Assembly (NCBI GenBank): GCA_029257805.1
Contig: JARIAR010000009.1
Coordinates: 62,001-126,000, forward strand
Length of the DNA stretch: 64,000 bases
Source of the DNA: Blautia sp.
Lineage (GTDB): Bacteria > Bacillota > Clostridia > Lachnospirales > Lachnospiraceae
Reading direction: 5' to 3'
The position numbers and the translations under genes were made by a program. The notes below the pieces were generated by a model. The model saw nothing but the letters and a program-made list of their open reading frames with translations. It searched no databases and was not told the origin of the DNA. Below, piece after piece: positions 522-49,044 of the stretch (position 1 is the first letter of the stretch; every line of letters begins with the position of its first letter).

Positions 522-553
522 CATATTCTCTCTGTAATAAAAAACGAAGGGAG
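522..553 (+). promoter_or_regulatory. CATATT box plus AAAACGAAGGGAG ribosome-site block
   Basis: CATATT at 522-527, 13 nt, then AAAACGAAGGGAG at 541-553, followed by the ATG at 561. One of thirteen such arrangements in the element. Read as an element-specific -10-like promoter; no clear -35 is visible. Confidence 0.5.
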
Positions 554-560
554 AAAAAAT

Positions 561-2228
561 ATGAATAACATTAATGACTATGGTCAAAAGATAGGTGGGG
601 CAAGAAAGGACTTATGGCAGCTCCGCGGTTTGTTTACACATGACATTCTAAACATGAATGAGGTTGAGAAAACAAAATATGTTTGTAAAAACAACATTTG
701 GCTGAAGCCAGATATACCAACACTACTGGACAATGGTATTCCGCGCTTTGTGGTATACTGGAGAAATGAAATACGAAAAACAATTTATCCAACACCAAGA
801 AATAATATTTCATTTGAAGCTTATATAGATGGGGTCCGTAAGATTAAAGAACTGGTAAACACAGTCATTTCAGAAAAAGGTATTCCGGACTGTATAGCAA
901 AAATCATTTCCATTACTATGTACAAAGTATCGACTTACCGTTATAACTACTCTGATTCCTATGTAGGTATAATAAACGGAAATAAAATCCTCAAAATGAA
1001 AAGTGCCTATAGGCTTGCCTGTTTAAAAGCTAAAATGGAAAAAGAAGACTTTGGATTGTCTGAATTGGAGGCAATATCAAGAAAATATACCGTTGTGTCA
1101 ATTTCAGATACTTTTTCTATTACAGAGCAATGTGGAAAGATAGCCCTTGTTCAGTCAGCGGCTGATTCAAAAACTTTCTTTTATCCCGCTCCTGATGTAA
1201 TATTGCAAAAAGAGTCATATGTGCTTATTAACAGCGTATCACACAGAATATTGCTCTGTTCTGCTTCTGAAAAAGAATGTACAGATATGAAAAACAGCTT
1301 AATTTCTGAAACTCTTACAAAATCAAAAGGCGAAAAGAAACAGAAAAAGACATGGCTTCCCAAGCAGTTTACCAATCTCCAAAAAACAGGAATAGATTTC
1401 CGCAATGGGAAAAACATATCTGGAAAGGACATATTGGAAAACTTTGGAATCCGGGGAGGAGAATTTGGTAATTGGACAAATGACAAAGAACGTCAGACAA
1501 GCCTCAATATGGCTTTTGATGCATTTGCTGACCTTGCAAATGCCCTGGGTATCGCATACAAAGATGTGGCGCTTCCCCCTCTTCAGAACGGTGGTCTCGG
1601 CATCGCTATCGGTGCGAGGGGACGCGGAAACGCAGCGGCTCATTATGAACCTGAACTTGAAGTGATTAATCTTACCAAAAACAGAGGCGCCGGAGCACTC
1701 TCACATGAGTGGGGTCATGCTTTGGATAATATGATTGCCAAAGTATATTTACCTTTGGAAGGAGTCATGTCATCAGAAGTATATTCCAGAAACCGACATA
1801 TTCTTCCATCCGGTTTTTGTGATGTAATGGACAGAATTTACAAAAATTCAGATTGTTCCTACACTGACTACTATATACAATCTGAAAAGTTTGATGCCTC
1901 TTACAAAAAATCTGGAAACGGATATTGGGCATCCCCCTGCGAATTATTTGCCAGAGCCTTTGCCTGTTACGTTCTGGATCGGACACAGGGAATTAATGAT
2001 TTCCTGAACGGTCACTCAGAATCTTTTGTAAATTTCGATGAGAAAGGCGATAAGATATATGCCTATCCACGGGGAAAAGAACGTGAATCCATTAACAGTG
2101 CATTCGATGAACTTATTCGCCAACTCAAAGAGAATAGTGTTTTCACTCCTCTTGAAGCCATTCTGCCAAAAGTAGCATCTGAACCTCTATACTTCGAAGA
2201 CTTCACAAAACAACTATCTTTTTTCTGA
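561..2228 (+). CDS. Polyvalent-protein type zincin-like metallopeptidase (LPD1-like)
   Basis: 555 residues. The N-terminus carries IGGARKDLW, and a zinc-metallopeptidase motif HEWGHALDN starts at H382 (HExxH type), preceded by a Gly/Ala-rich strand. This combination resembles the large polyvalent protein-associated domain 1 of conjugative elements and phages, where such proteins are thought to enter the recipient with the DNA and act on host targets. The substrate is unknown. The start is supported by GGGAG 7 nt upstream and a CATATT box. A bidirectional terminator follows. The family assignment is from memory of motifs; the metallopeptidase signature itself is clear. Confidence 0.65.
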   Translation: MNNINDYGQKIGGARKDLWQLRGLFTHDILNMNEVEKTKYVCKNNIWLKPDIPTLLDNGIPRFVVYWRNEIRKTIYPTPRNNISFEAYIDGVRKIKELVNTVISEKGIPDCIAKIISITMYKVSTYRYNYSDSYVGIINGNKILKMKSAYRLACLKAKMEKEDFGLSELEAISRKYTVVSISDTFSITEQCGKIALVQSAADSKTFFYPAPDVILQKESYVLINSVSHRILLCSASEKECTDMKNSLISETLTKSKGEKKQKKTWLPKQFTNLQKTGIDFRNGKNISGKDILENFGIRGGEFGNWTNDKERQTSLNMAFDAFADLANALGIAYKDVALPPLQNGGLGIAIGARGRGNAAAHYEPELEVINLTKNRGAGALSHEWGHALDNMIAKVYLPLEGVMSSEVYSRNRHILPSGFCDVMDRIYKNSDCSYTDYYIQSEKFDASYKKSGNGYWASPCELFARAFACYVLDRTQGINDFLNGHSESFVNFDEKGDKIYAYPRGKERESINSAFDELIRQLKENSVFTPLEAILPKVASEPLYFEDFTKQLSFF

Positions 2229-2230
2229 AA

Positions 2231-2263
2231 AAGAAGGGCCCTGCATAATGCAGAGTCCTTCTT
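2231..2263. terminator. Bidirectional hairpin terminator
   Basis: Arms AAGAAGG.CCTGCAT and ATGCAG..CCTTCTT between convergent genes. On the minus strand the stem is followed by a T-run. Confidence 0.7.
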
Positions 2264-2274
2264 AATACAATATA

Positions 2275-2607
2275 TCATTTTTCTGGGACTATTATAGCCT
2301 GTCCACACCATTTGCAATGACCTGCAAACATATCTTCTTCTGTCAGCGCAGTTCCGCAATATGGGCACTCATATTTTTCGCCGGGAATTACCTCACAAAT
2401 AAGCACTGCTTCTTTGACGGTCTGTTTTTTCATAAAATCTTCTGTAATTTCCTCCAATTTTTCAGAATCAATCCAACTTTCAGATTTCTCACAAAATTTC
2501 TCTGCAAGCAATTCTAGTTCCTTATTCGAAAGCTCATATCCTGCCTCATCTGCCCTAAATTTCGCTTCCTCCATACAGAATCTCTGCAATGTAGTTGTTT
2601 CATTCAT
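2275..2607 (-). CDS. Small zinc-ribbon protein
   Basis: 110 residues from the ATG at 2607, chosen because GGAGAAAG lies upstream; a longer frame to 2670 has no ribosome site. The C-terminus holds a zinc ribbon, CPYCGTAL...CKWCGQ, likely binding one zinc through four cysteines. The N-terminal half is acidic and helical. Its own CATATT box precedes it, and the coupling-protein gene lies upstream on the same strand, separated by about 140 bp. Function unknown; the ribbon suggests nucleic-acid or protein binding. Confidence 0.7.
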   Translation of the reverse strand: MNETTTLQRFCMEEAKFRADEAGYELSNKELELLAEKFCEKSESWIDSEKLEEITEDFMKKQTVKEAVLICEVIPGEKYECPYCGTALTEEDMFAGHCKWCGQAIIVPEK

Positions 2608-2619
2608 TTTATTTTCTTT

Positions 2620-2657
2620 CTCCTTTCGTTTTATAAATGTTTTTCGAAAAAAATATG
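2620..2657 (-). promoter_or_regulatory. CATATT box plus AAAACGAAAGGAG block
   Basis: CATATT (complement of 2652-2657), 19 nt, then AAAACGAAAGGAG (2620-2632) before the ATG at 2607. The spacer is longer than the usual 12-14 nt. Confidence 0.4.
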
Positions 2658-2745: not shown

Positions 2746-5154
2746 TTATTCTTCCATGTAATCCGCCAATTCAGCTATTTCTGTTTCCAAAACTTCTGCC
2801 ATAAAATGATTTCCTTCCCGAAGATATTTCCTTATAGTTTCAAAATTTTCTTCAGGTGTTTCCGGTACTCTTTGGACAATGATTTCGTCAGAAAAATCCT
2901 CTATTTTCTCACAAGGAATGTTCAGAGCACCTAAAACATTATGGATGATACCTCCCAGATCAACTAAATATGCCGTTAGTATTCCTTTTTGGGGAGTTGG
3001 TCCGAATATAATAATTGGGAGATTTTTATCAATGTAAAATCGCCGGATAAATCCTGGCATAACTTTGCAATCCATACGCCTTTCCATAATACAAATCCCT
3101 TGTTCCTTGTGTGATTTTCCTTTTATTTTTTTCAGCTCTAAACATTCTCTCGTTACCTTTTTATCCAATGATTCCGAAATATCACGGAGGAATTTTATTG
3201 CGCTCTCTCTATCCGGACTCTGAATAGATTTTAATATTTCAAAAGCGTCCTTCGTATCTGCTCCTTTAATCGACAACTGATTAATGTCTGCCGGCTGGCT
3301 CACGCGTGCAGCTGCTTCTGCTGGTTCTTCTATAGCTAATTCTTTTTCCTTTAAATATTCCGAAGAAATATTTAAAAATTCAGATTCACGAATATCACTG
3401 AAAAATTCTTGTTTATAATCTCCTGTGAGCTTATATTTGGGATGATTTTCATAATGATATTTCTGATCGTAGAAAGCATATTCGCCCCGGACAAAAACAA
3501 GGCAGTATTCATTTGGCATTGTCCGAATTTCATCAGGCGTCATAAGTTCACGCCCCGCCTGTTGAAAAGTCATAGATGTATCTGAATTTTTTCCGGCTTT
3601 CAATCCTACACTCATTCTGGCACGTATAGTTTCCTTGCCAAGGAAGTCCGAAAAATATTTTGCAGTCGTCTGTTCGTTTGTTCCCAATAAGATTGTAACA
3701 TCACAATTGCCCAAAATTGTCTCATAGTCATCTTTATACATGGCAATCAGCTGGGCAAGAGACTGCAGGATAATGGTAACACTCATGTTGTATTTTCTCA
3801 TAGTGGATATTATTTTCTGAAATTTCGGAATTTTCCCAGTATTTGCAAATTCATCTAACAGAAATCGAACATGATACGTCAATCTCAAATTCTCTCGTTG
3901 CTCGGCAATATAATACAATGTATCAAATGCCTGAGTAAACATCATGGAGGCAAGGAAATTATAGGTATCATTTGCCTGTGGAATAATCACAAACATCGCT
4001 GTTTTTTCATCACCTATTTTATCCAATTCCAAATCATCTCTTGATGTAAGATTTGCAATTTCTTTCACAGAAAAAGGATTTAAACGGACCGCTGTACTTA
4101 TGAGAATACTTTTCAATGTACGCACCCCACCTAACCGGAAAACCTGATAGTTTTTCCATGCCTGGGAGTTGGAAAGCTTTTCTTTCATAAGTTTTTTTTC
4201 TTCAGGATTTATTATTTCAAAAAGCTCTCCCTCTTTTAAGACGGCATCCCCCTCAAACAGCTTATCTAAACCGGATTTCACATTTACTTTCGCATTTTCA
4301 TCCATCTGACCTTTTACCACCATTTTTAAGATGGTAGAAAAATTCTGGTATTTTTCTGGAACAAACTCAATCAGATAAAAAATGCAGGCAGAAAGTAATG
4401 CCCTTTCCGATTTGTCCCAGAATGGATCCGATGATTTTTGTTCTGGAGCAGTTGTATTTGAGATGAATGCATCCACCAAAATCCCCACTCCGGCTTCATC
4501 TCTTATATAGCGGAAAGGATTGTAGCAATTCGAAAAGACCATTTCAACAAGATTAAATACCTTTATTTTATAACCATCTTCTTTTAGTGGTTTTACCAAA
4601 GATGCATACAGTTCCCCTGATGGGTCCGTAATCACCATACTGCAATTTTCCTGCAGCATATTGGGTTTCATTAAAAATCGGGATTTTCCTGTACCGGCCG
4701 CACCAACTACCATAGTGTTATTGTTTCTCCTAGTTTCCCGATCAAGCAAAGATAATCTTACATGCTCTGACAAAATCATATTATATTCTCCGCTATTGCC
4801 ACTTCTCCCAATAGGATCTGCATAAGTTTTATTATACTCATCCATCTGGTCATTCCATTTAGCAGATCCTGCTTCTTTTCCCGGCGATTCACGCTTATAC
4901 TTTTCCATATATACATGAATTTCCTCTACCAAGATAGCGTACAGAACCGTAGCGATACTATAAAAGTTTAAATACTCTAAGCTGTAATGAAACTGCATGT
5001 TTTCCATGTCATTGAATGCCAAAAGGATACGTTCAATTCCCCCTCCAGACGCTGCGTAATAGGCCAGATTCCCAGCAAAACAAAGTACCAAGATGTATCC
5101 AGATATAATCAGTATGGCATAAAGTAATTTCTGATCACCTTTTTTCTTATCCAT
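2746..5154 (-). CDS. VirD4/TraG-type conjugative coupling protein (PcfC-like)
   Basis: 802 residues. Two hydrophobic segments (about residues 9-35 and 62-80) form the membrane anchor. The P-loop GAAGTGKS lies at 151-158 and the Walker B region LLDEFANTGKIPKF includes D434. This is the layout of type IV coupling proteins, ATPases that bring the relaxase-DNA complex to the mating channel. It sits 11 bp downstream of the PcfB-like gene, the same order as pcfB-pcfC in enterococcal plasmid pCF10, so the two are probably co-translated. The C-terminal 230 residues beyond the ATPase core are poorly conserved to my eye and may bind substrates. Confidence 0.92.
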   Translation of the reverse strand: MDKKKGDQKLLYAILIISGYILVLCFAGNLAYYAASGGGIERILLAFNDMENMQFHYSLEYLNFYSIATVLYAILVEEIHVYMEKYKRESPGKEAGSAKWNDQMDEYNKTYADPIGRSGNSGEYNMILSEHVRLSLLDRETRRNNNTMVVGAAGTGKSRFLMKPNMLQENCSMVITDPSGELYASLVKPLKEDGYKIKVFNLVEMVFSNCYNPFRYIRDEAGVGILVDAFISNTTAPEQKSSDPFWDKSERALLSACIFYLIEFVPEKYQNFSTILKMVVKGQMDENAKVNVKSGLDKLFEGDAVLKEGELFEIINPEEKKLMKEKLSNSQAWKNYQVFRLGGVRTLKSILISTAVRLNPFSVKEIANLTSRDDLELDKIGDEKTAMFVIIPQANDTYNFLASMMFTQAFDTLYYIAEQRENLRLTYHVRFLLDEFANTGKIPKFQKIISTMRKYNMSVTIILQSLAQLIAMYKDDYETILGNCDVTILLGTNEQTTAKYFSDFLGKETIRARMSVGLKAGKNSDTSMTFQQAGRELMTPDEIRTMPNEYCLVFVRGEYAFYDQKYHYENHPKYKLTGDYKQEFFSDIRESEFLNISSEYLKEKELAIEEPAEAAARVSQPADINQLSIKGADTKDAFEILKSIQSPDRESAIKFLRDISESLDKKVTRECLELKKIKGKSHKEQGICIMERRMDCKVMPGFIRRFYIDKNLPIIIFGPTPQKGILTAYLVDLGGIIHNVLGALNIPCEKIEDFSDEIIVQRVPETPEENFETIRKYLREGNHFMAEVLETEIAELADYMEE

Positions 5155-6707: not shown

Positions 6708-6740
6708 CATATTAGCTTCGTAAGATGAAAACGAAAGGAG
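6708..6740 (+). promoter_or_regulatory. CATATT box plus AAAACGAAAGGAG block
   Basis: CATATT at 6708-6713, 14 nt, AAAACGAAAGGAG at 6728-6740, then the ATG at 6749. Confidence 0.5.
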
Positions 6741-6748: not shown

Positions 6749-8521
6749 ATGAAATTAAAAGAATTATATGTAAAAAATTTCGGATGCTATGAAGAAAAAA
6801 TTTTCCAAATTCCGCACATCATGGTTATGCTGAAAGAAAATGCACAGGGAAAAACAACATTTCTCCAAGCACTAAACTTTGCTTTATGTGGGAATTACCA
6901 GGAACGTATGATGCGCAAAGGCTGCAGTGAAATGGAAGTTTCCTTAACTTTCCAAGATGGTTTCTGTGTAAAGCGCCGCAGGAAAAGTGGTGTTACTTCT
7001 TCCGCAATGGGAGATAATAAGAAACCAACTTTTCAATCCAAAGAAATCGTTGATGCAGCAGTTATACAGCACTGTGGATCAAAAAAAATGGAGTTTGTAA
7101 AGGTAATCGCTTCTTCGAAAGAACTATTCGAAATGAAAGCAGATTCTATGGCCAAGTTTTTAATGGATAATATCCCAAATGTGATGCGTACAGAAGACGT
7201 ACTGTCCTACATCGAGGATATTACCCCGCAGATGGAAGCAGAAATCCGCAAAGTATTACCCGCATCTGGAGAGTTTGGACAGGAAGCAATCTTCATCGCT
7301 TATAAGCGCTTCGATGAAACGCGAAAAGAGATGGCAAAAAGCCTGAAAACAGAAAAAGCAAAGATAAACGGATATGATTTTTCTAAAAAGAAAAGGACTC
7401 CAGACACAATAAAAGACGAATACAATCGTGTTCTGGTGGAACTCGGTTCTCTGAATGAAAAAAGGGAATTGCAGATACACTATGAGCAGCAGAATCGGAC
7501 ACGGCAGAAACAGTTAGAAAAGCTCAGGGATTTGAAAGAACGCTTTAACGCTATTCATGCAAATTGTCCCAATGAAGAATACTTTGAAGAACTTGTCCGG
7601 AACGAAACTACACAAAGACAATTTGAAAGTTCCCTGCAGGCTGATATTGCAACTTATAGCCAGCAAATCTGTCAACAGCAGGAAGTGATTGCTTCTCTTA
7701 AAAAAGGATTGTGTCCACAGATTAAAAATATGCACTGCCCGAACAATTGGAAACCGGTTATCCGCAAACTTCAGTCGCAATGCGAAAGTTTAAAGACAAA
7801 TCTTACAGAGAAACAGGCTACATTGATGAACTGCAAAAAAGAGCTGGATAGTCTTTCCAATAAGAAACGAGAATATATGAATAATAAAGAACGTGCTTTG
7901 AAAAAGCAGGCATTATTCCAAGAATACACAAGTTTAAAGCAAAATTTAACAGCCAAGCCACCAGAAATAGAAGCCGTCGATACACAAGCTTTGACGGAAC
8001 AAAAAATGAAACTGGAATTAGAACTGCAGGAATCTATGAGATTCCAGTCTATGTTAGAAATCCAGGAATCTATTCCGGAAAAAGAGATGGAACTGGCACG
8101 TTTCGAATCTTTGACAAAAGATTTTTCTTCAAAGGGAAGTGTCATGGAAAAAAGCCTAAAAAATTACTTCCGATTCTTCACGGATTCCATAAATCCTATG
8201 GCTGAATCCTTTGGATACCAGATACATCTTGATTTTGATAAAGGTATTCGCATTTTAGCATCAAAGCAGGGAGAGGAACCTATCCCTCTGGAATTTTGTT
8301 CAACTGGTGAAAGAACGGTTATAATTTTTATGCTGTTAAGCTTTTTAAATAACTTAACTGGCTTAAATATCTTGTTCTTAGACGACATTGAATGTCTGGA
8401 CAAAAATGTGATGAAAAATCTCCTGGAATTAATCCATAAACATCAGGACAATTATGACCATGTGATTCTATCTGGTGTTGACCACGAGGATACAACCTAT
8501 CTTATTTCTTCCTATTTATAG
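6749..8521 (+). CDS. Rad50/SMC-like ATPase
   Basis: 590 residues from the ATG at 6749, set by GGAG 8 nt upstream. The N-terminus has the SMC/Rad50 shape (KLKELYVKNFGCYEE) followed by a divergent P-loop, KENAQGKTT at 29-37. About 300 residues of coiled coil surround a central CPQ...HCPNNW cysteine motif, reminiscent of a zinc hook. Near the C-terminus are an ABC-signature-like CSTGER and a Walker B strand LFLDDIECLD. Such proteins act in DNA break processing or as defence ATPases. No Mre11-type nuclease partner is adjacent. It runs opposite to its neighbours and ends in a bidirectional terminator. Confidence 0.75.
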   Translation: MKLKELYVKNFGCYEEKIFQIPHIMVMLKENAQGKTTFLQALNFALCGNYQERMMRKGCSEMEVSLTFQDGFCVKRRRKSGVTSSAMGDNKKPTFQSKEIVDAAVIQHCGSKKMEFVKVIASSKELFEMKADSMAKFLMDNIPNVMRTEDVLSYIEDITPQMEAEIRKVLPASGEFGQEAIFIAYKRFDETRKEMAKSLKTEKAKINGYDFSKKKRTPDTIKDEYNRVLVELGSLNEKRELQIHYEQQNRTRQKQLEKLRDLKERFNAIHANCPNEEYFEELVRNETTQRQFESSLQADIATYSQQICQQQEVIASLKKGLCPQIKNMHCPNNWKPVIRKLQSQCESLKTNLTEKQATLMNCKKELDSLSNKKREYMNNKERALKKQALFQEYTSLKQNLTAKPPEIEAVDTQALTEQKMKLELELQESMRFQSMLEIQESIPEKEMELARFESLTKDFSSKGSVMEKSLKNYFRFFTDSINPMAESFGYQIHLDFDKGIRILASKQGEEPIPLEFCSTGERTVIIFMLLSFLNNLTGLNILFLDDIECLDKNVMKNLLELIHKHQDNYDHVILSGVDHEDTTYLISSYL

Positions 8522-14400: not shown

Positions 14401-15332
14401 TTGTCCGGGAAACAGTATTTCCATACGTAATCTGACGCTTTCTTGCTGTTCCAGTCGCCACCTTCTTTGACAAGCTTCAGCCAACCACTCAGGAGATAGC
14501 CATTGCTGTCTGCATAATAAACATCCTTGTTCAGGGAGAAACGGCCTTTTACAAAATAATGTCCACCTTTATACACACGGTAATGTCCGTCTGGTGTCAA
14601 ATGTATGCCATCGGAGGTATTGTCTCCTTTGCCACCCATAGTAGCAACACGATCCCATATCTTTTCTGCATCTTTCAAATAATTATTCACACCAACATTC
14701 ACACCAACTTTATAAAAAAAAGTATCACTTTTTTGATCTGCCAATGCAGTTTCTGTGATCACAGGAGCCTGGGTTTCCCCTTCCCAGACATAGTTTGGTG
14801 TCCCGTCTTCCAGATAGCCGTCAAATTCAAGATGCCCTTCCGAAGCCGAACTTTCCTCTTCTGCTGGAATTTCTCCTGCAGAGGATTCTCTACTGGTATC
14901 TGGTGTAGTTTCTTCTGCAATACCCATATCTTCCATCAGAGAATCCATATTCTCCTCTTTAGAAGGTGTTTCGATAATTTTAGTTGTAATTACATCAAGA
15001 AATACCTCGCTTGCTGGCATGAAGAATATATAATTGTCTTCCGTATCCGGAAGGACATCAATTTCCCCGTCTACGCCATATGCCTCAATAGATTCCACAG
15101 AATATCCTGCATCAGGAATTACACAGATATTGACCATTTCGTCCGCCTGAAATTCAGTTCCGTTAAGAAAAATCACTTCTGCATGGTCTGATGTTTCATC
15201 GACCGTATAGGTCATTATGCTCTCTTCTTCTGTCATTTCAACAGGTACATCAGCCGCTGCTGCAATATAAGCTGCTGAATAAGAGGTCGCTGTTACCACT
15301 GCCAGAAGAAGTGCAAGCAGTTTCTTTTTCAT
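11454..15332 (-). CDS. Large secreted surface protein with three Cna-B/SpaA-type repeats
   Basis: 1292 residues. Signal peptide at 1-27. An acidic linker is followed by a YYADSNGYLLSGW-type wall-binding repeat near residue 280 and a long beta-rich N-terminal region. Three tandem SpaA-like domains of about 113 residues each (about 11930-12945) carry repeated KKDA, YQYNK and NPEGYTG(N/S)WSKEV motifs; a fourth, different domain closes the protein. Lys, Asn and Glu placements suggest intramolecular isopeptide bonds. No LPxTG-type anchor or C-terminal membrane helix is present, which is unusual. The gene's own ribosome site is weak; its ATG overlaps the stop of a 64-codon ORF (ATGA). Confidence 0.85.
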   Translation of the reverse strand: MKKKLLALLLAVVTATSYSAAYIAAAADVPVEMTEEESIMTYTVDETSDHAEVIFLNGTEFQADEMVNICVIPDAGYSVESIEAYGVDGEIDVLPDTEDNYIFFMPASEVFLDVITTKIIETPSKEENMDSLMEDMGIAEETTPDTSRESSAGEIPAEEESSASEGHLEFDGYLEDGTPNYVWEGETQAPVITETALADQKSDTFFYKVGVNVGVNNYLKDAEKIWDRVATMGGKGDNTSDGIHLTPDGHYRVYKGGHYFVKGRFSLNKDVYYADSNGYLLSGWLKLVKEGGDWNSKKASDYVWKYCFPDNYIRCELGYQVVDGVGHYFDHDYSGNLMFNKTYKVGGQNYYCDQYGVCGPTTFETSSTLAKNAGGVTVANSSTTMDGSYSFFPKFNSNSSVSPFGASFSTTSDGHKYCTLQDESLAGRIGCWYYNVGTYKGRQLDIKLTVTDYTLYSFEGAPEIGYFYVDMNKIGLNNCNTRDMTADLAFYDHETGQPVSVKGFITFADIDICQGVEILTNPDKVYVANDCELYKASGRNLFIAPWEEPPLNGNSINDDNTSHWVQVNYSGTHLKYKFYSARENYRFSNGMRDINGESKQVWQSGYTGSVNDYDIYKSGNLWQGWQGIFFKRLTKIPISEPLSKTVSDNNEKDVLKDRLDDRNETFTYKLSHYVPYEQSDYWYDSYKITDTIHSDLQINQSGIRVKLDSGSDVTSRFNVSVSGQNVTVTANNTRSSSFYNETYNVYIPVTIKSNVDLSSYVNGRDYSVKNTGKVTLTRSGRSENKTSNEVETVITLQKKTHGKISITKKDADSGSLLTGAEFVVYQYNKNTGDYEDTLGSKRSFIYYATRKKYESKLLEITDQNNGKFKVIETKNPEGYTGNWSKEVTFTKGGTSEQNISLTATNKKIENPKGTVSVIKKDADSGEVITSGDAVFKVYQYNKETGKYEDTLGATATLSWDNAKRKYISPKLEITSENDGKFKVIETKNPEGYTGSWSKEVAFIKGGDSEQTLSLTATNTKIKNPKGTISVVKKDAITKEVITATDAVFHVYQYNKATSKYEDTLGAAALLFWDNAQKKYISKELEITSENNGKFKVVEEQPPEGYTGNWSKEVTLSADSEAQLHQTFEVENEPKRLPEGEIKINKRIKESDITWAHGNPTFLFKADGKDIRGNAHTYETYVTFEKGNYSIDPDGYARLSTTIKNVPIGTYKITEKQVLRYYLAEATPNTANVKIQQVGKAEYGKKPEEIAYGTATLDLKNLKAEITFRNEKQRFDDYSHNDVVRNTVTFKMK
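11930..12945 (-). repeat. Three in-frame 339-bp repeats within the SpaA-type gene
   Basis: Units begin near 12945, 12608 and 12269 (minus direction). Each encodes one about 113-residue SpaA domain, and units 1 and 2 are most alike. They are prone to recombination and copy-number change. Confidence 0.75.
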
Positions 15333-15523
15333 GTTATCTTCGGGCAGAAAGCCTGTCCGGATAATATATGAAAAAATGGGCTGCCCTGAAGACTTCCTGT
15401 CCTTCCTCCTTTCTCAGAGTTTCTAAAAAAAAGTCTACAGCCCTGTATGTTACTGGCACGCCACATCTTACGGATTTTATCCCGTGGACGGTTGCGCGCA
15501 ATCTTATGGCATCTTTCAGCCAT
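15329..15523 (-). CDS. Candidate 64-residue ORF leading into the surface-protein gene
   Basis: Starts at the ATG at 15523 with AAGGGAG 7-8 nt upstream and a CATATT box 14 nt before that. It is basic and Arg-rich. Its TGA overlaps the ATG of the surface-protein gene (ATGA), so it could serve as a translational leader. The peptide itself is not recognised, and an overlapping frame (GTG at 15531) is also open. The context supports translation more than the sequence does. Confidence 0.45.
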   Translation of the reverse strand: MAERCHKIARNRPRDKIRKMWRASNIQGCRLFFRNSEKGGRTGSLQGSPFFHILSGQAFCPKIT

Positions 15524-15530
15524 CGTACCA

Positions 15531-15563
15531 CTCCCTTCTGCTTTTTTGTACCTTTAAAATATG
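15531..15563 (-). promoter_or_regulatory. CATATT box plus AAGGGAG ribosome site
   Basis: CATATT (complement of 15558-15563), 14 nt, then a block ending AAGGGAG, before the ATG at 15523. Likely promoter of the leader ORF and surface-protein gene. Confidence 0.45.
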
Positions 15564-22238: not shown

Positions 22239-22270
22239 CTCCCTTCGTTTTGGTTTGTGAAGGGAATATG
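22239..22270 (-). promoter_or_regulatory. CATATT box plus AAAACGAAGGGAG block
   Basis: CATATT (complement of 22265-22270), 13 nt, then AAAACGAAGGGAG. The dispersed palindrome lies 28 bp upstream. Confidence 0.5.
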
Positions 22271-39279: not shown

Positions 39280-39654
39280 TTAATTATTCAATGCTTCGGC
39301 AAAAGCATCTAAAAGTGATAACGCAAATGGATTCTCTGAATACTGGCTACGCACATATGGAATTCCCATCCCATTTGTACTCACTGCTGCTTTATAGCAT
39401 GTACCAAAAATCTGCTTTGCATCCTCATAAGTTGGGGTGTAATTGTGCTTTCCAAATCCCAGATTTCTTCCCGGCACAATACAGGCTTTGATAGAAGCGA
39501 GTACCAGATTTTGTAAAAAACTGTCTTCATCAAAAGAACAACATAATTCATGCCATCTTTCAAAATCTGTCTCCGTATCCTCCATATCAAAAACAGGGTT
39601 AAAATAACACTGTACAAAATACTTCGTTTCTTTTACAACCTCCTGCATAGTCAT
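39280..39654 (-). CDS. Hypothetical protein
   Basis: 124 residues, soluble, acidic, with aromatic-rich helices (FERWHELCCSFDEDSFLQNL). No family recognised. Strong local signals: GGAG 8 nt before the ATG, a CATATT box, and its own terminator. It forms a single-gene unit. Confidence 0.65.
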   Translation of the reverse strand: MTMQEVVKETKYFVQCYFNPVFDMEDTETDFERWHELCCSFDEDSFLQNLVLASIKACIVPGRNLGFGKHNYTPTYEDAKQIFGTCYKAAVSTNGMGIPYVRSQYSENPFALSLLDAFAEALNN

Positions 39655-39662: not shown

Positions 39663-39693
39663 CTCCTTTCGTTTTTTTATTAGCATGAATATG
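39663..39693 (-). promoter_or_regulatory. CATATT box plus AAAACGAAAGGAG block
   Basis: CATATT (complement of 39688-39693), 12 nt, then AAAACGAAAGGAG. Confidence 0.5.
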
Positions 39694-42621: not shown

Positions 42622-42643
42622 AAAACGAATTAAAATTCGTTTT
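42622..42643 (+). repeat. Dispersed palindrome copy 5
   Basis: AAACGAATTAAAATTCGTTT plus one A and T (22 bp). Its last base is the first base of the recD2 stop triplet. Confidence 0.9.
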
Positions 42644-44817
42644 CATGCGGCATCAGACAAAGCACGGATACGCTCACATAAATTTGAATTTCTTTTTGCA
42701 ACTCTTTCATTGTGAACTGCCATTGCGATTGCTTTTTTTTGCCCAAGTACAAAGACGTATTTTTTTCCTCTTGTTAAAGCGGTATATAATAGATTTCTCT
42801 GTAACATCACAAAATGACTCGTTAAAATCGGTAACACAACAACCGGATATTCTGAACCCTGTGATTTATGTATTGTAATAGAAAAAGCGAGGGTCAAGTC
42901 ATCTAATTCTTCAGCAGCATATTCAACAAGCCGTTCATCTTCCAGAACTACCATGCTTTTTTCTTCCATATCTATTTTCTGGACAATGCCTATATCCCCA
43001 TTAAAGATATTCTTATCATAGTCATTCCGCATCTGCATAACGCGGTCTCCCTTTCGGTACTGCTGTCCCAGTCGTTCCAAAGAATTTCCATTAGGCGTCA
43101 GAATTTTCTGCAACTCTCTGTTCAGTACTTCTGTTCCTACTGGGCCTTTTTTCATGGGTGAAAGGACTTGAATCTCTTCCGGAGAAAAGCCATATTTACA
43201 TGGAATTACTTCCTGCACAAGATGCACAATATCCTTTAATGTATCTTCGGGCGTTTCTTCTTCCAAAAATATAAAATCGGATTCCGGGGAATTATGCAGT
43301 TCTGGCATATATCCATTTTTTATCCGGTGTGCATTTGTAACAATTCTGCTTTTTTGTGCCTGACGAAATATACGGGTCAAACGTATTACAGGAAATCTTT
43401 CGGACTGTATTATATCTCGCAGAAAATTGCCAGCCCCTACTGAAGGCAACTGATCGGTATCTCCAATTATGACAAGACGCATAGCAATGGGAACTGCCTG
43501 CAGCAACGCATATGCCAGTCTTAAATCAATCATAGAACTTTCGTCCAGAACAAGGACATCCCCTTCTATCGGATTGTTTTGGTTTTTTTGAAATCCTTTT
43601 TTACCAGCCCCCAGTAACCTGTGTATGGTAGATGCCGGCAATCCTGTCGTTTCTGACAGACGCTTTGCTGCCCTCGCTGTAGGTGCTGCAAGGACAACTG
43701 ATAAGCCATACATCTGATACGCAGTTATAATCCCCTGTGCTGTCGTAGATTTTCCTGTTCCGGGACCACCCGTAAGAATCATTACTTTTGAGCGGGTAGC
43801 CTGCCGGATAGCTGTTCTCTGCACCTCGTCATACTCCATACCGACTCTTTTTTCTATTTGAAATACATTTACGGATAACGAATCATTTCCTGTTTTTTTT
43901 ATTTCTGCCTGTAACTGTTTCCACAACCTATCTTTCGCATCGGAATTATTAATTTCACAAAGTTTTCTGGCAACACCGATTTCTGCAAAAAAATACTGCG
44001 GCAGATATATTTTTTCTCCTTCCAAAGTCACCTCTTTATTTTCTTTCAGTTCAAAAAGCTCCTGTTTTATTGCTTCCTCATCAATATTTAAAATTTCAGC
44101 CGTTTTTTCTATGGTCTGCTCATAACCTCCATAAACATGACCTTCATCTGCCAGTTTTTCCAATGCATATTTAATTCCGGCTCTAATACGCAGAGGCGAC
44201 TTTCTTTCAAATCCCATTTGCAGTGCAATCTCATCTGCCGTTTTGAAGCCGATTCCCCAGACATCACGTGCTATGTAGTATGGATTCTCTTTTATTTTTT
44301 TTATACTGTTCTGCCCATATCTTTTATAAATTTTCATAGTAAGATTGGGCGTTACACCGTATTTTTGCAGATATATATAAATATCTCTGACTGCACAGTG
44401 ATCTTTCCAGGACTGCTTAATCTTTTCCATTTTTTTCGGCCCAATTCCCGAAACTTCTAAAAGCCTGTCTATATCTGTTTCAAAAATATGAAAGGTTTCT
44501 TTTTGAAATTTATCGACAATATTATCTGCTAGATATGGACCAACACCTTTAATCAAACCACTGGATAAATATATTTTTATTCCTCTAATATCAATTGGTA
44601 AAATTTCGCGCCAATTTCTGCAATTAAACTGTTTTCCATATTTCGGATGATGGAACCATTCTCCCTCAATTTCAAACTGAAAGCCAATACGCAATTCCGA
44701 AAACACGCCTGTAACCAATACCGGCTCAATATATCTGCAGGAAGATATTTTGAAAACAGAATATCCTTCTTCATTCTGATATATGATTGAAGCTACACTT
44801 CCTTTTATTATTTCCAT
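42643..44817 (-). CDS. recD2: RecD2-type 5'-3' helicase
   Basis: 724 residues, the usual RecD2 length. The N-terminal region includes helix-hairpin-helix motifs (LLEVSGIGPKKMEKIKQSW; VWGIGFKTADEIALQMGF). The helicase core has P-loop LTGGPGTGKSTTAQGI near 350, Walker B VLDESSMIDLRL, motif GDTDQLPSVGAGNFLRDI, and the C-terminal LTLAFSITIHKSQGSEYPVV. RecD2 acts in replication-fork repair without RecBC. Here it joins UvrD, RadC and the clamp in the element's DNA-maintenance set. Confidence 0.93.
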   Translation of the reverse strand: MEIIKGSVASIIYQNEEGYSVFKISSCRYIEPVLVTGVFSELRIGFQFEIEGEWFHHPKYGKQFNCRNWREILPIDIRGIKIYLSSGLIKGVGPYLADNIVDKFQKETFHIFETDIDRLLEVSGIGPKKMEKIKQSWKDHCAVRDIYIYLQKYGVTPNLTMKIYKRYGQNSIKKIKENPYYIARDVWGIGFKTADEIALQMGFERKSPLRIRAGIKYALEKLADEGHVYGGYEQTIEKTAEILNIDEEAIKQELFELKENKEVTLEGEKIYLPQYFFAEIGVARKLCEINNSDAKDRLWKQLQAEIKKTGNDSLSVNVFQIEKRVGMEYDEVQRTAIRQATRSKVMILTGGPGTGKSTTAQGIITAYQMYGLSVVLAAPTARAAKRLSETTGLPASTIHRLLGAGKKGFQKNQNNPIEGDVLVLDESSMIDLRLAYALLQAVPIAMRLVIIGDTDQLPSVGAGNFLRDIIQSERFPVIRLTRIFRQAQKSRIVTNAHRIKNGYMPELHNSPESDFIFLEEETPEDTLKDIVHLVQEVIPCKYGFSPEEIQVLSPMKKGPVGTEVLNRELQKILTPNGNSLERLGQQYRKGDRVMQMRNDYDKNIFNGDIGIVQKIDMEEKSMVVLEDERLVEYAAEELDDLTLAFSITIHKSQGSEYPVVVLPILTSHFVMLQRNLLYTALTRGKKYVFVLGQKKAIAMAVHNERVAKRNSNLCERIRALSDAA

Positions 44818-44937
44818 TTTTTTCTCCTTTGCGCAGACATCTAAATTTTCACAATATGAAAAATCACTTTATTTATAATAATATGGAGAATTTATATTTT
44901 TGTTAAATTTTTACCAATATATATCTATGTGATTCCT

Positions 44938-44967
44938 CATATTCTTTTCAACACATAAGAAAAGGAG
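44938..44967 (+). promoter_or_regulatory. CATATT box plus AAAAGGAG site
   Basis: CATATT at 44938-44943, 11 nt, then a block ending AAGAAAAGGAG before the ATG at 44975, in the divergent gap beside recD2. Confidence 0.45.
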
Positions 44968-44974: not shown

Positions 44975-46114
44975 ATGGGATTAACAGATAACATTTCTTT
45001 AGAACCTCTTTCACCTATACAGCAATTTGCAATGAACCGTGTATTTTTCAATAGATACAAACGTCCAAAAGATTATATGCAAATCCATTCATTTATCAGT
45101 ACTTTTCGTTTTGACACACAGGTAACGTACATTTCTTCCGGTGAAAAACACGAAGAATCTTTATTTTCAGGAAAAAATTGGAAATATGGTCCTAACAGCA
45201 AAAGACTCGTATCCATCTGGATGAACCATAAGAACATTTTTCGCTGTGACAAGATTGCAGTGGAAGGCGAATCTGGACTCTTTTTTCCGGTCGAACCCAG
45301 TTTTATTATTCGTATCAGCCGTGAACGCAGTCAGTATGTCTGGCAGCTTTCCCATACTCTCCCATTATCGAGAAATTCCGATCTTACGCTTCTATCTGAT
45401 ATGCTTGCTTATCTGCATCCTGGATGTGTAAATATCAACCGCATTGGAAAAAAAATCATCTGCCCTGGGGTTCCAAATGCACAGACTGGTATCACGCCTA
45501 TCCTTGAAAAGAGTTCCGGACGCAGCTACAGCTTTCGTGAGCTACAAAAATCTGTTCAGGATTATTTTCCTGTTAAAGGTAAAAGTCTGCGCAAATACCT
45601 TCGTTCAGACAAGCTTTACATATCCGGTCTTCACACTACTCACCAATTTATTAGCCTGCGTCGCATGAATCAGATGTCTTGTATGCGATTTTCAAAAAAA
45701 CAATTCCAAACACTAAAAAATGACTTTACATTCTGGTTTCTCCATTTCGCCGAAGATGCCGGCCTGACAAAGAAAGAATCCAAGGAACATTTGCTGACCG
45801 TTCTGAAACGCAAACATTTATCTATCACAGAAAATTTATTAAGAAAACACACTCCAACCACACATCGTTATTTCATAACCAATAGACGGCTGGTAGAAAT
45901 ATTTGGAGACCTTGGTGCCAAAGTGTTCCCGGTCCGTATCTTCAAGAATGTAAAAGAAAAAGGGACGATACTACGGGAGAAAATTGCTATTCTTGCACGT
46001 GCAGGTAAAACTGTTCGTGAAATAGCTGCCGAGCTGAATGAACATATTTCTAAAATCAAGCGCCGTAGAAGCGAATGTGTAAAACTCGGACTACTGCCAG
46101 TTTGTCCTATCTAA
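44975..46114 (+). CDS. Possible replication initiator (divergent AEP-primase-like, C-terminal HTH)
   Basis: 379 residues, GGAG 7 nt upstream. The middle (YVWQLSHTLPLSRNSDLTLL, then YLHPGCVNINRIGKKIICPG and VPNAQTG) follows the pattern seen in archaeo-eukaryotic-type primases of plasmids, where a D-x-x-x-R-x-x-R-x-PG-x-x-N-x-K stretch occurs. The metal-binding acidic pair is not clear. The C-terminus has a resolvase-like HTH (ARAGKTVREIAAELNEHISK). It is transcribed away from recD2. A Rep-type role is an inference; it could instead be a transcription regulator. Confidence 0.45.
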   Translation: MGLTDNISLEPLSPIQQFAMNRVFFNRYKRPKDYMQIHSFISTFRFDTQVTYISSGEKHEESLFSGKNWKYGPNSKRLVSIWMNHKNIFRCDKIAVEGESGLFFPVEPSFIIRISRERSQYVWQLSHTLPLSRNSDLTLLSDMLAYLHPGCVNINRIGKKIICPGVPNAQTGITPILEKSSGRSYSFRELQKSVQDYFPVKGKSLRKYLRSDKLYISGLHTTHQFISLRRMNQMSCMRFSKKQFQTLKNDFTFWFLHFAEDAGLTKKESKEHLLTVLKRKHLSITENLLRKHTPTTHRYFITNRRLVEIFGDLGAKVFPVRIFKNVKEKGTILREKIAILARAGKTVREIAAELNEHISKIKRRRSECVKLGLLPVCPI

Positions 46115-46566: not shown

Positions 46567-47536
46567 TTAGAAATGACTGCATTCGTAAATATCGTTGCCA
46601 TAAGCTGTAAAACTCCTAGGATATGCCCGGAGTACTGGTCTTACCTTTTCTTCCAGGTGATTATTGCACTCTGCTTTTTTGTGTCCACGCAGGGATTTAA
46701 CAATCTTCGTATAATGGACTTTTCCAAGTGAATAAAGAACCGCCCGTATGACATTCCTCCAGGTAGCACTCATGCTGTCCCGTATGTCCATTGTCATTTT
46801 TCGTGGAAGGATATATCCAACCTGCATATAATTTCTGCATGGTTTTTAGAGGATAACCAGGTTTTCCTGAAGAATCGGCACAAAGTTCTTCCGGCTATAA
46901 GTACAACTACTGGATGCACAATTATGTTGCATTTTTACAATGTTCTGAAGGATTTCTCCAGGAAGGGAAAGGTAGAGCATCATATCATGATATTTCCCAT
47001 TCCTTCGGATATTACCGCATAAAATCCTTATTTTTGTTCCCGGACTCATAGCATTATATAACTTTAGCGTCACTTTATTATTCGCAAGCATTCCTTCCTC
47101 AAAAGACATCTGCCCTATATCCTGTGCTGCCAGTTTTCCATCCGGATCTGTGTACTCACTTCCTGCATATCGGATACCGATTTCCGGATACGGTAAAATC
47201 CGTATTTGAAAATTCTTCAGGAATCTCATCTTCCAAGGCATTATATACAAATATATCTGGCCTTACCGGACATGAATTTAAGTCGGCCCCTACATACGGA
47301 ATTGCCATATCTTTGCATACATCATAACCGGTTCCACTGCCAGCATACATCTCTCCTATGTACTTTACATTGTACTGTTCAATGAAAAAAGCAGGTATAT
47401 ACCCAGAACCGTTTCCCCTATAGCGACTGTTCCTCCAAGGAGCCCTGTCAGGAAAGCTTAATACCGTTCCCTCATTTGAACGTACAACTTTTAAAATATA
47501 TATTGCTTCTCCTTTCGTTTTCATGAATAATCGCAA
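46567..47536 (-). pseudogene. Decayed adenine-type DNA methyltransferase
   Basis: Three pieces read as one protein. Piece 1 (47536-47156) holds motif I, EMYAGSGTG. A frameshift with loss of bases near 47200 removes the start of the catalytic (D/H)PPY motif, leaving YPEIGIRYAGSEYTDPDG in another frame. An in-frame TAA near 46846 separates the C-terminal piece (46827-46567), which looks like the winged-helix end of such enzymes. The CATATT box and AAAACGAAAGGAG are intact, but no ATG follows at normal spacing (ATA instead). At least two coding lesions, so inactive. Confidence 0.75.
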
Positions 47537-47540
47537 TATG
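47509..47540 (-). promoter_or_regulatory. CATATT box plus AAAACGAAAGGAG block (pseudogene)
   Basis: CATATT (complement of 47535-47540), 13 nt, then AAAACGAAAGGAG, preserved although the gene is broken. Confidence 0.45.
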
Positions 47541-47563
47541 GGAAATTGTTTTTGCGTATAAAA

Positions 47564-47589: not shown

Positions 47590-47608
47590 CTCTCAACCTT
47601 TTTCCAAC

Positions 47609-48076
47609 TTATACCCAATCACTTTCTCTAAAACTATAATAGCATCTAGCTCCAATGATAATGTGATCTATCAACTGAATTTCCATAAGTTTTCCAGCTT
47701 GACGAATTTTCTGCGTAACCAGCCTATCTTCTTGAGATGGCGCCGGATTTCCTGATGGGTGATTATGGACGAGGACAATACCTGTCGCATTGCATAAGAC
47801 GGAGCGCAGAAATATCTCTCGCGGCGAAGCAACCGACATATTAACCGTTCCATGACTGATATGGAAAAAACCAGACACATTCAACTGACTATTAAAAGCG
47901 AGCATATACATATGCTCCTCTGGAAGGTATTCCATATTTTCTACAGCATTTAAGGCAGTTACAATTTTCTCCGGATTATTCAAAGAATTTCCAGGATAAT
48001 TGAAGCAACACTCTTTAACAAGTAAACTTTTATCCCTTTCTTTGCTTAATCTTAAATCATATTTTTGTAATTCCAT
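47609..48076 (-). CDS. radC: RadC/JAMM-domain protein
   Basis: 155 residues. The JAB/JAMM metal site HNHPSGNPAPSQED lies near 108-121. It lacks the N-terminal HhH region of chromosomal RadC, as is typical of plasmid and phage versions (YeeS-like). Often found in mobile elements near replication or anti-restriction genes; biochemical role unsettled. Carries its own CATATT box and terminator. Confidence 0.9.
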   Translation of the reverse strand: MELQKYDLRLSKERDKSLLVKECCFNYPGNSLNNPEKIVTALNAVENMEYLPEEHMYMLAFNSQLNVSGFFHISHGTVNMSVASPREIFLRSVLCNATGIVLVHNHPSGNPAPSQEDRLVTQKIRQAGKLMEIQLIDHIIIGARCYYSFRESDWV

Positions 48077-48086
48077 AACATCATAT

Positions 48087-48117
48087 CCCCTTTCGTTTTG
48101 TTCGCAGAAAAAATATG
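48087..48117 (-). promoter_or_regulatory. CATATT box plus AAAACGAAAGGGG block
   Basis: CATATT (complement of 48112-48117), 12 nt, then AAAACGAAAGGGG. Confidence 0.5.
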
Positions 48118-48132
48118 CAATTTTCTGTAAAA

Positions 48133-48162
48133 AAGTGGCGCCGGAAACCCCGGCGCCACTTT
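48133..48162 (-). terminator. Terminator of the DUF5688 gene
   Basis: Perfect GC-rich stem AAGTGGCGCCGG/CCGGCGCCACTT with a T-run on the minus strand. Confidence 0.85.
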
Positions 48163-48168
48163 GCTGCT

Positions 48169-49002
48169 TTACACTATAGAGATTTTTCCATTTGAAAATT
48201 CGTATAAGTTGTAGGACAAAATTTCATTTTCATCCACAACTGCCTGATTTACTTCTTTTATCATTTTTTTGTACTCTTCCGCTTCTGCATACTTTTTTTT
48301 TGCCAGAAGTATTTCATGTATAGAAGATGGGATTACATAAAAATCATATCCTAGTTTTTTCCGTATCTGTTCTAATACAGTCGGAAAGAATATACATGCG
48401 GCTCCATTTATCTTCGCTTTATTGGTAACTGCATACAGATTAAATGGAGCACCAAAGGAAACATCTAATACTTCAAATTCCAATAGTGCATTTGTACCCA
48501 GCCTTTTTTCAGTGAAAAGTTCTTCTTTTGACCACCCTAACCTCTGGAGTAATCTGTTAGTAACAACCATGGAATATATTTCATCATTACCTTCTTTTGT
48601 CAACCGACCAATTAATGCCAGATCACACATAGTTATGTGTGGAACTTCTTTCAAAAATTCCTCATTAAGTTCAGCATTAATTGCCTGAAAAGTAATAAGG
48701 AAATCTGAAAGACATGATAAAAGATCTTGTCCAAAGCTTTGTGCCTCAAAACTTTTCATTTTGATTGATTCTTTTATACTTTCTACTATCTCTTCAATAT
48801 CTTCCCCTTTGAGAAATATTTGGAAAAGCTCTGGCATTTCGAATTGGAATCCACCTGAAATAGAACCATCTGCTAATTTTTGAATACAGATACACTCACA
48901 GCAACTATTCACTTTCATCTTTTTTTCGATTGAAATATCGTATCCTGTAAGTTCCTCCTTCAGTTCTGTCACAAATAATTTTTTAAAGTTTTCATAAGTC
49001 AT
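48169..49002 (-). CDS. DUF5688 family protein
   Basis: 277 residues. The C-terminal half (YDFYVIPSSIHEILLAKKKY; FSNGKISIV at the end) matches DUF5688, frequent on mobile elements of Lachnospiraceae. Function unknown. Soluble, no catalytic motif visible. GGAG 9 nt before the ATG and a CATATT box. Confidence 0.75.
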   Translation of the reverse strand: MTYENFKKLFVTELKEELTGYDISIEKKMKVNSCCECICIQKLADGSISGGFQFEMPELFQIFLKGEDIEEIVESIKESIKMKSFEAQSFGQDLLSCLSDFLITFQAINAELNEEFLKEVPHITMCDLALIGRLTKEGNDEIYSMVVTNRLLQRLGWSKEELFTEKRLGTNALLEFEVLDVSFGAPFNLYAVTNKAKINGAACIFFPTVLEQIRKKLGYDFYVIPSSIHEILLAKKKYAEAEEYKKMIKEVNQAVVDENEILSYNLYEFSNGKISIV

Positions 49003-49011
49003 AATTGCTTT

Positions 49012-49044
49012 CTCCTTTCGTTTTTTATTTGCAAAAGAAATATG
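49012..49044 (-). promoter_or_regulatory. CATATT box plus AAAACGAAAGGAG block
   Basis: CATATT (complement of 49039-49044), 14 nt, then AAAACGAAAGGAG. Confidence 0.5.

Follow-up and report, generated by a model that had tools for sequence, protein, structure and literature searches.

A CATATT promoter-like box in a conjugative element of a Blautia-like bacterium and a candidate cognate sigma factor

Sigma factors of mobile elements and the present element

Late promoters of phage SPO1 are read by a phage sigma factor and have the -10 element GATATT; the CATATT box described here is similar, but its first base differs, and in SPO1 there is also a defined -35 element. On plasmid pBS32 of Bacillus subtilis, SigN (ZpdN) has a regulon that is largely confined to the plasmid, with mapped transcription starts and a DNA gyrase gene among its targets (PMC6751061). 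The present element resembles that plasmid in encoding a putative sigma factor alongside an element-confined set of promoter-like sites. However, according to the promoter table of that report, SigN promoters have a clear -35 element, TTTACG, and a -10 element near GATATAA, in contrast to CATATT with a weak -35 element here, and sigN has its own SigN-dependent promoter (PMC6751061), whereas no box precedes the sigma gene of the present element. Phage phiEco32 gp36 is an element-encoded sigma factor whose promoters consist of a single element, tAATGTAtA, with transcription starting 6-8 bp downstream of it; gp36 is said in that source to lack region 4, whereas a segment resembling region 4 seems to be retained in our candidate and its homologue, and ours belongs to a conjugative element and not a phage (PMC8948821). 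In the phage T4 late system, again with an element sigma factor, the late promoters of gene e are located in the DNA for the 5' strand of a structure that hides the SD, and the late RNA is accordingly described as well translated (PMC3014915). The sequence differs from ours, and here such a hairpin is suggested by folding alone and for this element alone.

The first-pass annotation of this DNA called the arrangement apparently undescribed, which is too strong for the kind of system since element-restricted sigma regulons are known, both SigN of pBS32 and the phage sigma factors with single-element promoters. Likened by description, a parallel in clostridial conjugative elements is the presence of putative sigma genes inside Tn916/Tn1549/Tn5397-type elements of C. 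difficile, for which the promoter consensus was stated as still to be identified (PMC7438776). The present element offers, as one package, a consensus, a candidate sigma factor with a putative specificity residue, and predicted starts at about 16 genes.

We put a probability of roughly 60% on the reading that the boxes are promoters of a private regulon on a large conjugative element of a Blautia-like gut bacterium and are read by the sigma factor encoded at 26921. CATATT would then be the -10 element (-12 to -7), and transcription would begin at a purine, 7 nt past the final T of the hexamer, leaving a leader of roughly 24-42 nt in which the SD often lies within the element signature AACGAARGGAG. 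The sigma factor would guide host core RNA polymerase to the boxes, with its region 2.4 (WIKHAVT) reading the C at -12. Once switched on, it may turn on the genes for the relaxase, beta clamp, SSB-like protein, RadC, DUF5688 protein and others as a block. The features lie in the window, the whole stretch of 64,000 nucleotides analysed, as follows.

522-527, forward strand: CATATT box, predicted -10; predicted +1 at G534; leader 544-553; gene 561-2228, LPD1 domain (Pfam)
2652-2657, reverse strand: CATATT box; leader 2620-2629; gene about 2275-2607
2746-5154, reverse strand: type IV coupling protein (Pfam), unboxed; marks the element as conjugative
6708-6713, forward strand: CATATT box; leader 6731-6740; gene 6749-8521, AAA_15 match (Pfam)
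15558-15563, reverse strand: CATATT box, variant leader; gene 15329-15523
22265-22270, reverse strand: CATATT box; the SD is one arm of a 6-nt inverted repeat, CCCTTC/GAAGGG; gene about 21503-22231, whose CHC2 zinc-finger match stays under the Pfam cut-off
23519-23524, reverse strand: CATATT box; SD again in an inverted repeat; gene 22377-23483, beta clamp of DNA polymerase III (Pfam)
25843-25848, reverse strand: variant box CATTTT; leader 25818-25827; gene about 24811-25809
26760-26765, reverse strand: CATATT box, variant leader; gene 25911-26729, SSB domain (Pfam)
26921-27859, reverse strand: P0001 (312 aa), the sigma-70-type factor put forward as cognate, with His102 at the Gln437 position of sigma-70
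27920-28912, reverse strand: gene upstream of the sigma gene; its homologue (weak trigger-factor match) adjoins the sigma homologue in another Blautia element
39688-39693, reverse strand: CATATT box; leader 39663-39672; gene 39280-39654
44853-44858, reverse strand: weaker CATATT box, absent from the first-pass annotation; gene 42643-44817, RecD2 helicase (Pfam), with a sigma-A-like site further up than the box
44938-44943, forward strand: CATATT box, variant leader; gene 44975-46114
47535-47540, reverse strand: CATATT box; leader 47509-47518; no ATG, GTG or TTG start closely behind
48112-48117, reverse strand: CATATT box; leader 48087-48096; gene 47609-48076, RadC (Pfam)
49039-49044, reverse strand: CATATT box; leader 49012-49021; gene 48169-49002, DUF5688 (Pfam), with a distant homologue, likewise boxed, in another Blautia genome

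The element is predicted to be conjugative by its coupling protein (T4SS-DNA_transf, 1.7e-71), its relaxase (MobV, 126.3 bits against a cut-off of 100) and its T4SS proteins (TraG P-loop and PrgI above cut-off at C13:5.7-8.6 kb), all of which are present. The right end was placed near 49-50.5 kb of the window from the host-type genes beyond it, and the left end was not located. The recombinase-like protein found in the element fragment of a related genome, G291, had no match within C13:1-140000.

The box, its extent and its geometry

Genes were called mechanically from open frames of 60 aa or more, the start being chosen by its SD, and the element was taken as C13:1-111500, bounds that we set ourselves. 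In an unbiased count over 85 SD-bearing element genes, the top hexamer at -55 to -20 was CATATT, observed at 19 genes against 1.87 expected and in forward orientation (reverse, 2), compared to 1 of 82 host genes at the same positions and 2 of 82 in a wider interval. The element part of the window had the box upstream of 12 of 32 genes and never reversed, while 107 kb of flanking host-type DNA gave 3 forward occurrences at 96 genes and 3 reversed. Matches to AAAACGAAAGGAG with at most 2 mismatches numbered 20 in the window (3.96 expected). A matrix scan found the box at 21/106 element genes and, as background, at 1/89 host genes, a result that is partly circular since the matrix was trained on 16 boxes of the same element.

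Enrichment is not element-wide, as had been claimed, but covers about 74 kb (C13:37-111 kb), the part that holds the relaxase and replication-type genes. At C13:37001-111500, 16 of 54 genes have CATATT upstream and none has it reversed, whereas the left 37 kb with the TraG/VirB4-type and PrgI genes shows no enrichment (3/30 genes versus 2 reversed), and we dropped our first reading of the T4SS genes as regulon members. The three of our 20 own boxes that lie in that part may be chance. Left of the window, the boxed stretch includes four box-plus-leader sites, and the MobV relaxase gene there has a box too; these were absent from the first-pass annotation. The 13 genes said to share (G/T)CATATT have the exact hexamer in 12 cases, the site at 25818 being CATTTT, and G or T precedes it at 11 of those 12, with C at 47540. 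Boxed genes also tend to head gene runs (16/19 versus 51/87 unboxed; p = 0.04).

The strongest positional signal, not noted in the first-pass annotation, is a purine exactly 7 nt behind CATATT, found at 28 of 29 boxes (20/20 own, 8/9 related) versus 102 of 189 other CATATT sites (p = 2.6e-6). Boxes had been selected without use of this purine, and among the 12 positions compared it was the strongest, followed by nt 10 (p = 0.0012). Three of 32 boxes, C13:63430, L116:8059 and L117:1341, had been judged to lie inside coding sequence and were left out before the purine, -35, SD-pairing and fold counts. Box and purine together have the predicted geometry of a -10 element with its start site.

This geometry bears on the possibility that CATATT is an operator for a DNA-binding regulator of the element, such as the boxed 44975 protein with its weak HTH_38 match. 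Palindromes beside some boxes (CCCTTCGT...ACGAAGGG) would suit an operator, but a fixed orientation and a purine at 7 nt are expected of a -10 element, and good sigma-A-like sites occur at only 3/19 boxed genes (14/87 unboxed element genes, 28/89 host genes), so we regard the operator as decidedly improbable. Chance, or common ancestry of duplicated upstream regions, is scarcely credible: the SD region is indeed highly similar between genes, but the flanks look unrelated by eye, the genes belong to different families where any is assigned, and ten times fewer CATATT genes would be expected by chance than the 19 observed. Taken together, the enrichment, single orientation, fixed purine, position at gene-run heads and near-absence before host genes give good support to an element-confined, promoter-like regulon over about 74 kb.

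Over the 111.5 kb of the element the leader motif ACGAARGGRG is found 18 times, as opposed to not once in 113 kb of host DNA. It follows 10 of the 13 sites listed earlier, those at 15531, 26739 and 44967 having other purine-rich SD leaders. The gap from CATATT to ACGAA, scored for 16 full-leader boxes (12 own, 4 related), is 14-17 nt in 12 and 20-24 nt in 4, so that the spacing proposed before fits most boxes but not all; nor does a start codon follow the leader closely everywhere, there being none at 47509. No -35 element had been evident by eye, and a TTTTTA scan of the 20 own boxes found no strong one: matches of at least 5/6 at spacing 18-20 were seen at 4/20 own and 5/9 related boxes versus 7/189 control sites. 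At spacing 9-11 they were about as frequent in own boxes (5/20). The ordinary sigma-A promoters ascribed to three cargo genes are well supported for the ImmA-like gene (score 11.5) but not for the DUF3800 (9.5) and DUF4317 (8) genes.

The candidate sigma factor and its relatives

The product of 26921 is, as had been proposed, a sigma-70-type factor, although a divergent one. P0001 matches Sigma70_r2 (Pfam; curated cut-off 24) at 40.2 bits (E = 3e-10) in one scan and 42.9 bits in another, and an RpoD-like protein, so named by eye, in BLASTP (E = 2e-10). Against the NCBIfam model TIGR02937 (sigma70-ECF superfamily, regions 2 to 4; cut-off 42.9), P0001 alone falls short at 38.8, and its homologue P0002 reaches 58.5 across positions 5-164 of 165. 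A PDB search with a two-sequence profile gave 8 matches at E<=1, of which 7 are named sigma factors, and the best (1.1e-4) lies mainly over the C-terminal, region-4-like stretch. A single-sequence structure model (mean pLDDT 44.1, pTM 0.25) was too poor for use. The gene lacks the box, as noted before; it is the last in an apparent same-strand run starting at 30141.

That this factor reads CATATT is plausible. His102 stands at the place of Gln437 of sigma-70, region 2.4 being WIKHAVT in place of WIRQAIT, and the Q437H substitution in sigma-70 is reported to suppress a T:A to C:G change at -12, so that C is accepted there (PMC2613000). The cognate link, proposed earlier, thereby gains an argument at the level of a residue. 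Against it stands G291, of the same genus, with about eight boxes on two contigs and no detected element sigma: a search of it with P0001 gave no match at E <= 1e-3, and its 16 Sigma70_r2 matches all fall outside the two contigs with boxes. Its best two-row-profile match (5.2e-5) was taken for a host sporulation sigma factor. The box is thus kept without the sigma gene in one genome, as the first-pass annotation had named for its refutation, but the G291 element is fragmentary, with only about 22 kb in the box-bearing contigs, and a coupling-protein hit is likewise absent.

The finding in G291 would also suit another reader of real promoters, either the sigma-A of the host, helped by an activator from the element, or one of its sporulation-type sigma factors, which would couple the element to host development. 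SigE/K-type -10 elements begin with CATA, and the host has proteins resembling SigE/K and SigF/G (named by eye), the SigE/K-like ones with Asn at the Gln437 place. The letters after CATA do not match the SigE, SigK or SigG consensus, however, and a sporulation-sigma regulon should have the box before host genes, where it is nearly absent (1-2 of 82 genes in one 93-kb host stretch), as is the leader motif (0 in 113 kb). We consider such a reader unlikely, though not negligible.

Among 64 genus genomes, full-length homologues of the element-encoded sigma factor were found in G000 and G256, and strict boxes numbered 9 in G000, 4 in G291 and one each in G256, G278 and G303. The one homologue, that of G256, also counts against the cognate link: it is 31% identical to P0001, Asn replaces His at the Gln437 place, and the element fragments of G256 carry one box with purine and leader. 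The single boxes of G278 (before a MATE-like gene, by eye) and G303 (without a suitable gene) were judged chance. A looser pattern with a T-run matched 23 of the 64 genomes and its reversed control about as many (20), so it does not discriminate outside G000 and G291. Three further weak genus matches to the sigma factor near 2e-4, and five in 250 family genomes (best 6.6e-8, partial), were judged by eye to be other sigma factors. Overlapping samples of 392 order genomes (at 1e-10) and 391 class genomes (at 1e-12) returned the own genome only, and phages, plasmids and viral contigs no homologue; in a genome-contig search, P0001 as query found none and the alignment one locus. The box pattern matched 14 of 397 family genomes, more than once only in the own genome, and at least 80 stretches in viral contigs, one match each, which we took as chance. 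In G256, L191 has two further CATATT matches, both without the purine, and its matches to three genes boxed here (primase-like, RecD2 and 44975) have CATATT in 0/3 and CACATT in 1/3. Conversely, C13:56699-57634 is unboxed here though homologous to a boxed G291 gene.

A possible SD-hiding hairpin

Complementarity between the SD and the sequence behind the box was seen across 17 own boxes (permutation p = 0.0048, or 0.0004 when G-U pairs are counted; 0/1000 letter shuffles as high), the other 3 of 20 having been dropped from the complementarity test because their SD was outside the sequence retained. For the shuffle and fold tests, box-SD spacings outside 14-28 nt were dropped (3/20 own, 1/9 related). 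The SD was unpaired at 0.845 in folds of RNA started from the box and at 0.347 in read-through RNA. Such values would also be expected if CATATT were no promoter but part of an RNA element in which read-through RNA pairs the stretch behind CATATT with the SD for translational control. That account is highly improbable. The pairing is not seen in related boxes (p = 0.40 and 0.84; shuffle test p = 0.62; the fold test likewise), though CATATT and the purine are kept there, and, while shuffling a 32-nt stretch gave values as low in 1/100 cases, shuffling a 6-nt stretch did so in 26/100, which means that much of the hairpin effect is base composition.

We rejected the idea that such a hairpin generally accompanies the box, since it fails in relatives and the effect is partly present at unboxed element genes as well; a hairpin around the promoter in this element only is suggestive from the folds. 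Tentatively, and on the whole improbably, a private sigma factor with a -10 code shifted by one residue (C at -12 through His at the Gln437 place) would run the relaxase and replication block apart from the secretion genes, with many promoters in the 5' arm of SD-hiding hairpins, so that only RNA from its own sigma factor would be well translated and read-through would be silent. If true, this would extend the trick of T4 gene e over a whole regulon. The drop in SD-unpaired between box-started and read-through RNA was 0.361 for boxed genes, 0.186 for unboxed element genes and 0.080 for host genes.

Extent and context of the CATATT box

In an unbiased count of hexamers between -55 and -20 of the 85 element genes that bear a Shine-Dalgarno sequence (SD), CATATT ranked first, being present in front of 19 genes where 1.87 were expected, while the same count found it at only 1 of 82 host genes. 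Its orientation was also skewed (19 forward against 2 reverse complement), and the CATATT box is real. A strict pattern of box plus AAAGGAG had nine matches in the genome, seven of them inside the element. The leader around the SD, ACGAARGGRG, had 18 matches in the 111.5-kb element and none in 113 kb of host DNA. At 13 of the 18 sites, exact CATATT lies no more than 45 nt upstream, and two more sites have CATAAT and CATTTT.

We treated positions 1-111500 of the contig (C13) as the element; bare coordinates here are window positions, the window being C13:62001-126000 in a genome of 2.6 Mb. The element extends leftward beyond the window edge; on its right, host-type genes with Pfam matches to GIDE, PspA and YqfD start at 49.7 kb. 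The element is conjugative, as judged by two of its genes:

2746-5154: coupling protein (Pfam match)
Adjoining the left edge of the window and reaching into it: MobV relaxase (profile match)

We infer from the sequence that the first 37 kb of C13 also belong to the element, because matches to TraG/VirB4-type proteins and PrgI are found there. Its further genes encode a beta clamp, two SSB-domain proteins, UvrD and RecD2 helicases, a ParB-N protein, RadC and a topoisomerase. Phage tail lysozyme and 3D domains are encoded by a large gene in the unboxed left part (15878-19672 of L009, a piece of C13), which is adjoined by a gene for an NlpC/P60 protein; this puts cell-wall hydrolases near the secretion genes.

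The first-pass annotation had described the box as element-wide, which was true for only part of the element. The box was enriched in C13:37001-111500 (16 of 54 genes boxed, none reversed) but not in C13:1-37000 (3 of 30, with 2 reversed), and the 107 kb rightward of the element had 3 boxed genes out of 96, with 3 reversed. From these stretch-by-stretch counts, the regulon is limited to some 74 kb, and the secretion genes are not clearly part of it. This narrower extent leaves the odds of the promoter reading unchanged. By eye, the boxed gene at 47156-47540 (-) has box, leader and SD with no ATG, GTG or TTG close downstream, and the frame seemingly opens at ATA. At 51242-51254 (+), the leader AAAACGAAAGGGG stands without CATATT before the gene at 51267, adjoining the host-type genes.

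The box as a probable -10 element and its candidate sigma factor

We favor, with a probability of roughly 0.6, the combined reading that these are element-private CATATT promoters read by the element's own candidate sigma factor. Overall, there is a strong case for the promoter motif, a probable one for the candidate cognate sigma factor, and a translational layer is possible.

CATATT looks like a -10 element. Among boxes picked by CATATT, SD and start codon alone, a purine stood at nucleotide 7 behind the box in 28 of 29 (20/20 in this element and 8/9 in related elements), compared to 102 of 189 control CATATT sites (p=2.6e-6); the runner-up among the 12 positions tested was nucleotide 10 (p=0.0012). 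Nucleotide 7 is the expected place of the start site for a -10 hexamer at -12 to -7. For the phiEco32 sigma factor, which reads single-element promoters, starts are described 6-8 bp downstream of the element (PMC8948821). Boxed genes were also more commonly first in their run (16 heads and 3 internal) than unboxed genes (51 and 36; p=0.04). In this element, where the earlier impression was that no -35 is evident, the -35 is weak (TTTTTA at 4/20 boxes); of the related boxes, 5/9 have TTTTTA 18-20 nt upstream compared to 7/189 controls.

The factor that had been noted at 26921 was confirmed as sigma-70-type by homology:

26921-27859 (-): P0001, sigma-70-type factor, 312 aa

P0001 scores above the Pfam cut-off for sigma region 2 and can be aligned to a protein that looks like RpoD (E=2e-10), and a profile of P0001 and its homologue P0002 from another genome of the genus (G256) gave eight PDB matches (E up to 1), seven of them named sigma factors. 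On its own, P0001 falls below the TIGR02937 cut-off, while P0002 is above it. Two alignments agree in placing WIKHAVT of P0001 on WIRQAIT of the host sigma factors, putting His102 at the place of Gln437. In sigma-70, Q437H is reported to suppress the substitution of C:G for T:A at -12 (PMC2613000). By analogy, a sigma factor with His at this place would fit a -10 element starting with C, and P0001 is probably the cognate factor of the box. P0002 has Asn there, as do the host SigE/K-like proteins. SigE/K -10 elements start with CATA. The gene neighboring that of P0001 (27920-28912, -) has a homologue (32%) adjoining the P0002 gene, with a weak trigger-factor match.

The nearest known system is SigN of pBS32, described as likewise an element sigma factor with an element-restricted regulon (PMC6751061). 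Clostridial conjugative elements carry sigma genes, and a C. difficile study describes their consensus as still to be identified (PMC7438776). No description of the present regulon was among the matches listed for CATATT/sigma/promoter, for the Blautia ICE literature or for wider topics, in searches without subscription journals and preprints.

Sigma and box across the genus

A full-length P0001 homologue was found in two of 64 genomes of the genus, the source genome and G256, and there were three more weak partial matches near 2e-4. Strict boxes number nine in the source genome and four in G291; G256, G278 and G303 have a single one apiece. A related coupling protein (at 1e-80) is found in 20 of the 64 genomes. 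Setting aside the source genome and G256 leaves 18 carriers, of which G278 alone has a strict box match, just one and before a MATE-like gene.

The proposed co-occurrence of sigma and box gave a mixed picture. Against it, G291 is boxed, with no P0001 homologue found in it and no sigma region 2 on its boxed contigs, but these contigs cover only some 22 kb of its element; no related coupling protein was found in this genome either. In G256, contig L191 shares with the element the coupling protein (44% identity) and nine other genes. In the G256 element, however, a single box (L118:3267) has both purine and leader, two CATATT matches lack the purine, and the primase-like gene keeps the leader with CACATT where the box belongs. 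DUF5688 genes (24% identity) are boxed in the source genome and G291 alike, while another boxed G291 gene has an unboxed homologue in this element. By eye, a large-serine-recombinase-like gene beside a small spore-protein-like gene starts the boxed G291 fragment (L116:541-2280), and a long gene resembling DNA polymerase III alpha adjoins the G256 sigma homologue (L117:1875-4172).

A possible SD-hiding hairpin

At 17 of this element's boxes, the bases that follow CATATT were complementary to the SD (permutation p=0.0048 for Watson-Crick pairs, 0.0004 with G-U), which was not seen in the nine related boxes (p=0.40 and 0.84, respectively). Letter shuffles of the stretch behind the box agreed (0/1000 as high here; p 0.62 for the related boxes). 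In folding predictions, the SD was unpaired at 0.845 in box-started RNA compared to 0.347 with read-through. The read-through value rose to 0.454 (sd 0.044; 1/100 as low) when the 32 upstream nucleotides were shuffled, while shuffling the 6-nt stretch alone left the fold result unchanged (26/100 as low). SD accessibility fell by 0.361 at boxed genes, compared to 0.186 at element genes that lack the box and 0.080 at host genes. T4 gene e is described as using such an SD-hiding arrangement (PMC3014915), and the predicted folds suggest that a second, translational layer of control may exist at the boxes of this element. The pattern may instead be a by-product of pyrimidine-rich promoters facing purine-rich leaders. 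The strongest single cases are C13:42196, 522 and 23519-23524. At the first (C13:42161-42196; about 2160-2196 of L011, a piece of C13), a perfect 8-nt inverted repeat, CCCTTCGT/ACGAAGGG, lies between box and SD, and the predicted unpaired SD falls from 0.95 to 0.10; at 522 it falls from 0.95 to 0.03 and at 23519-23524 from 0.79 to 0.08.
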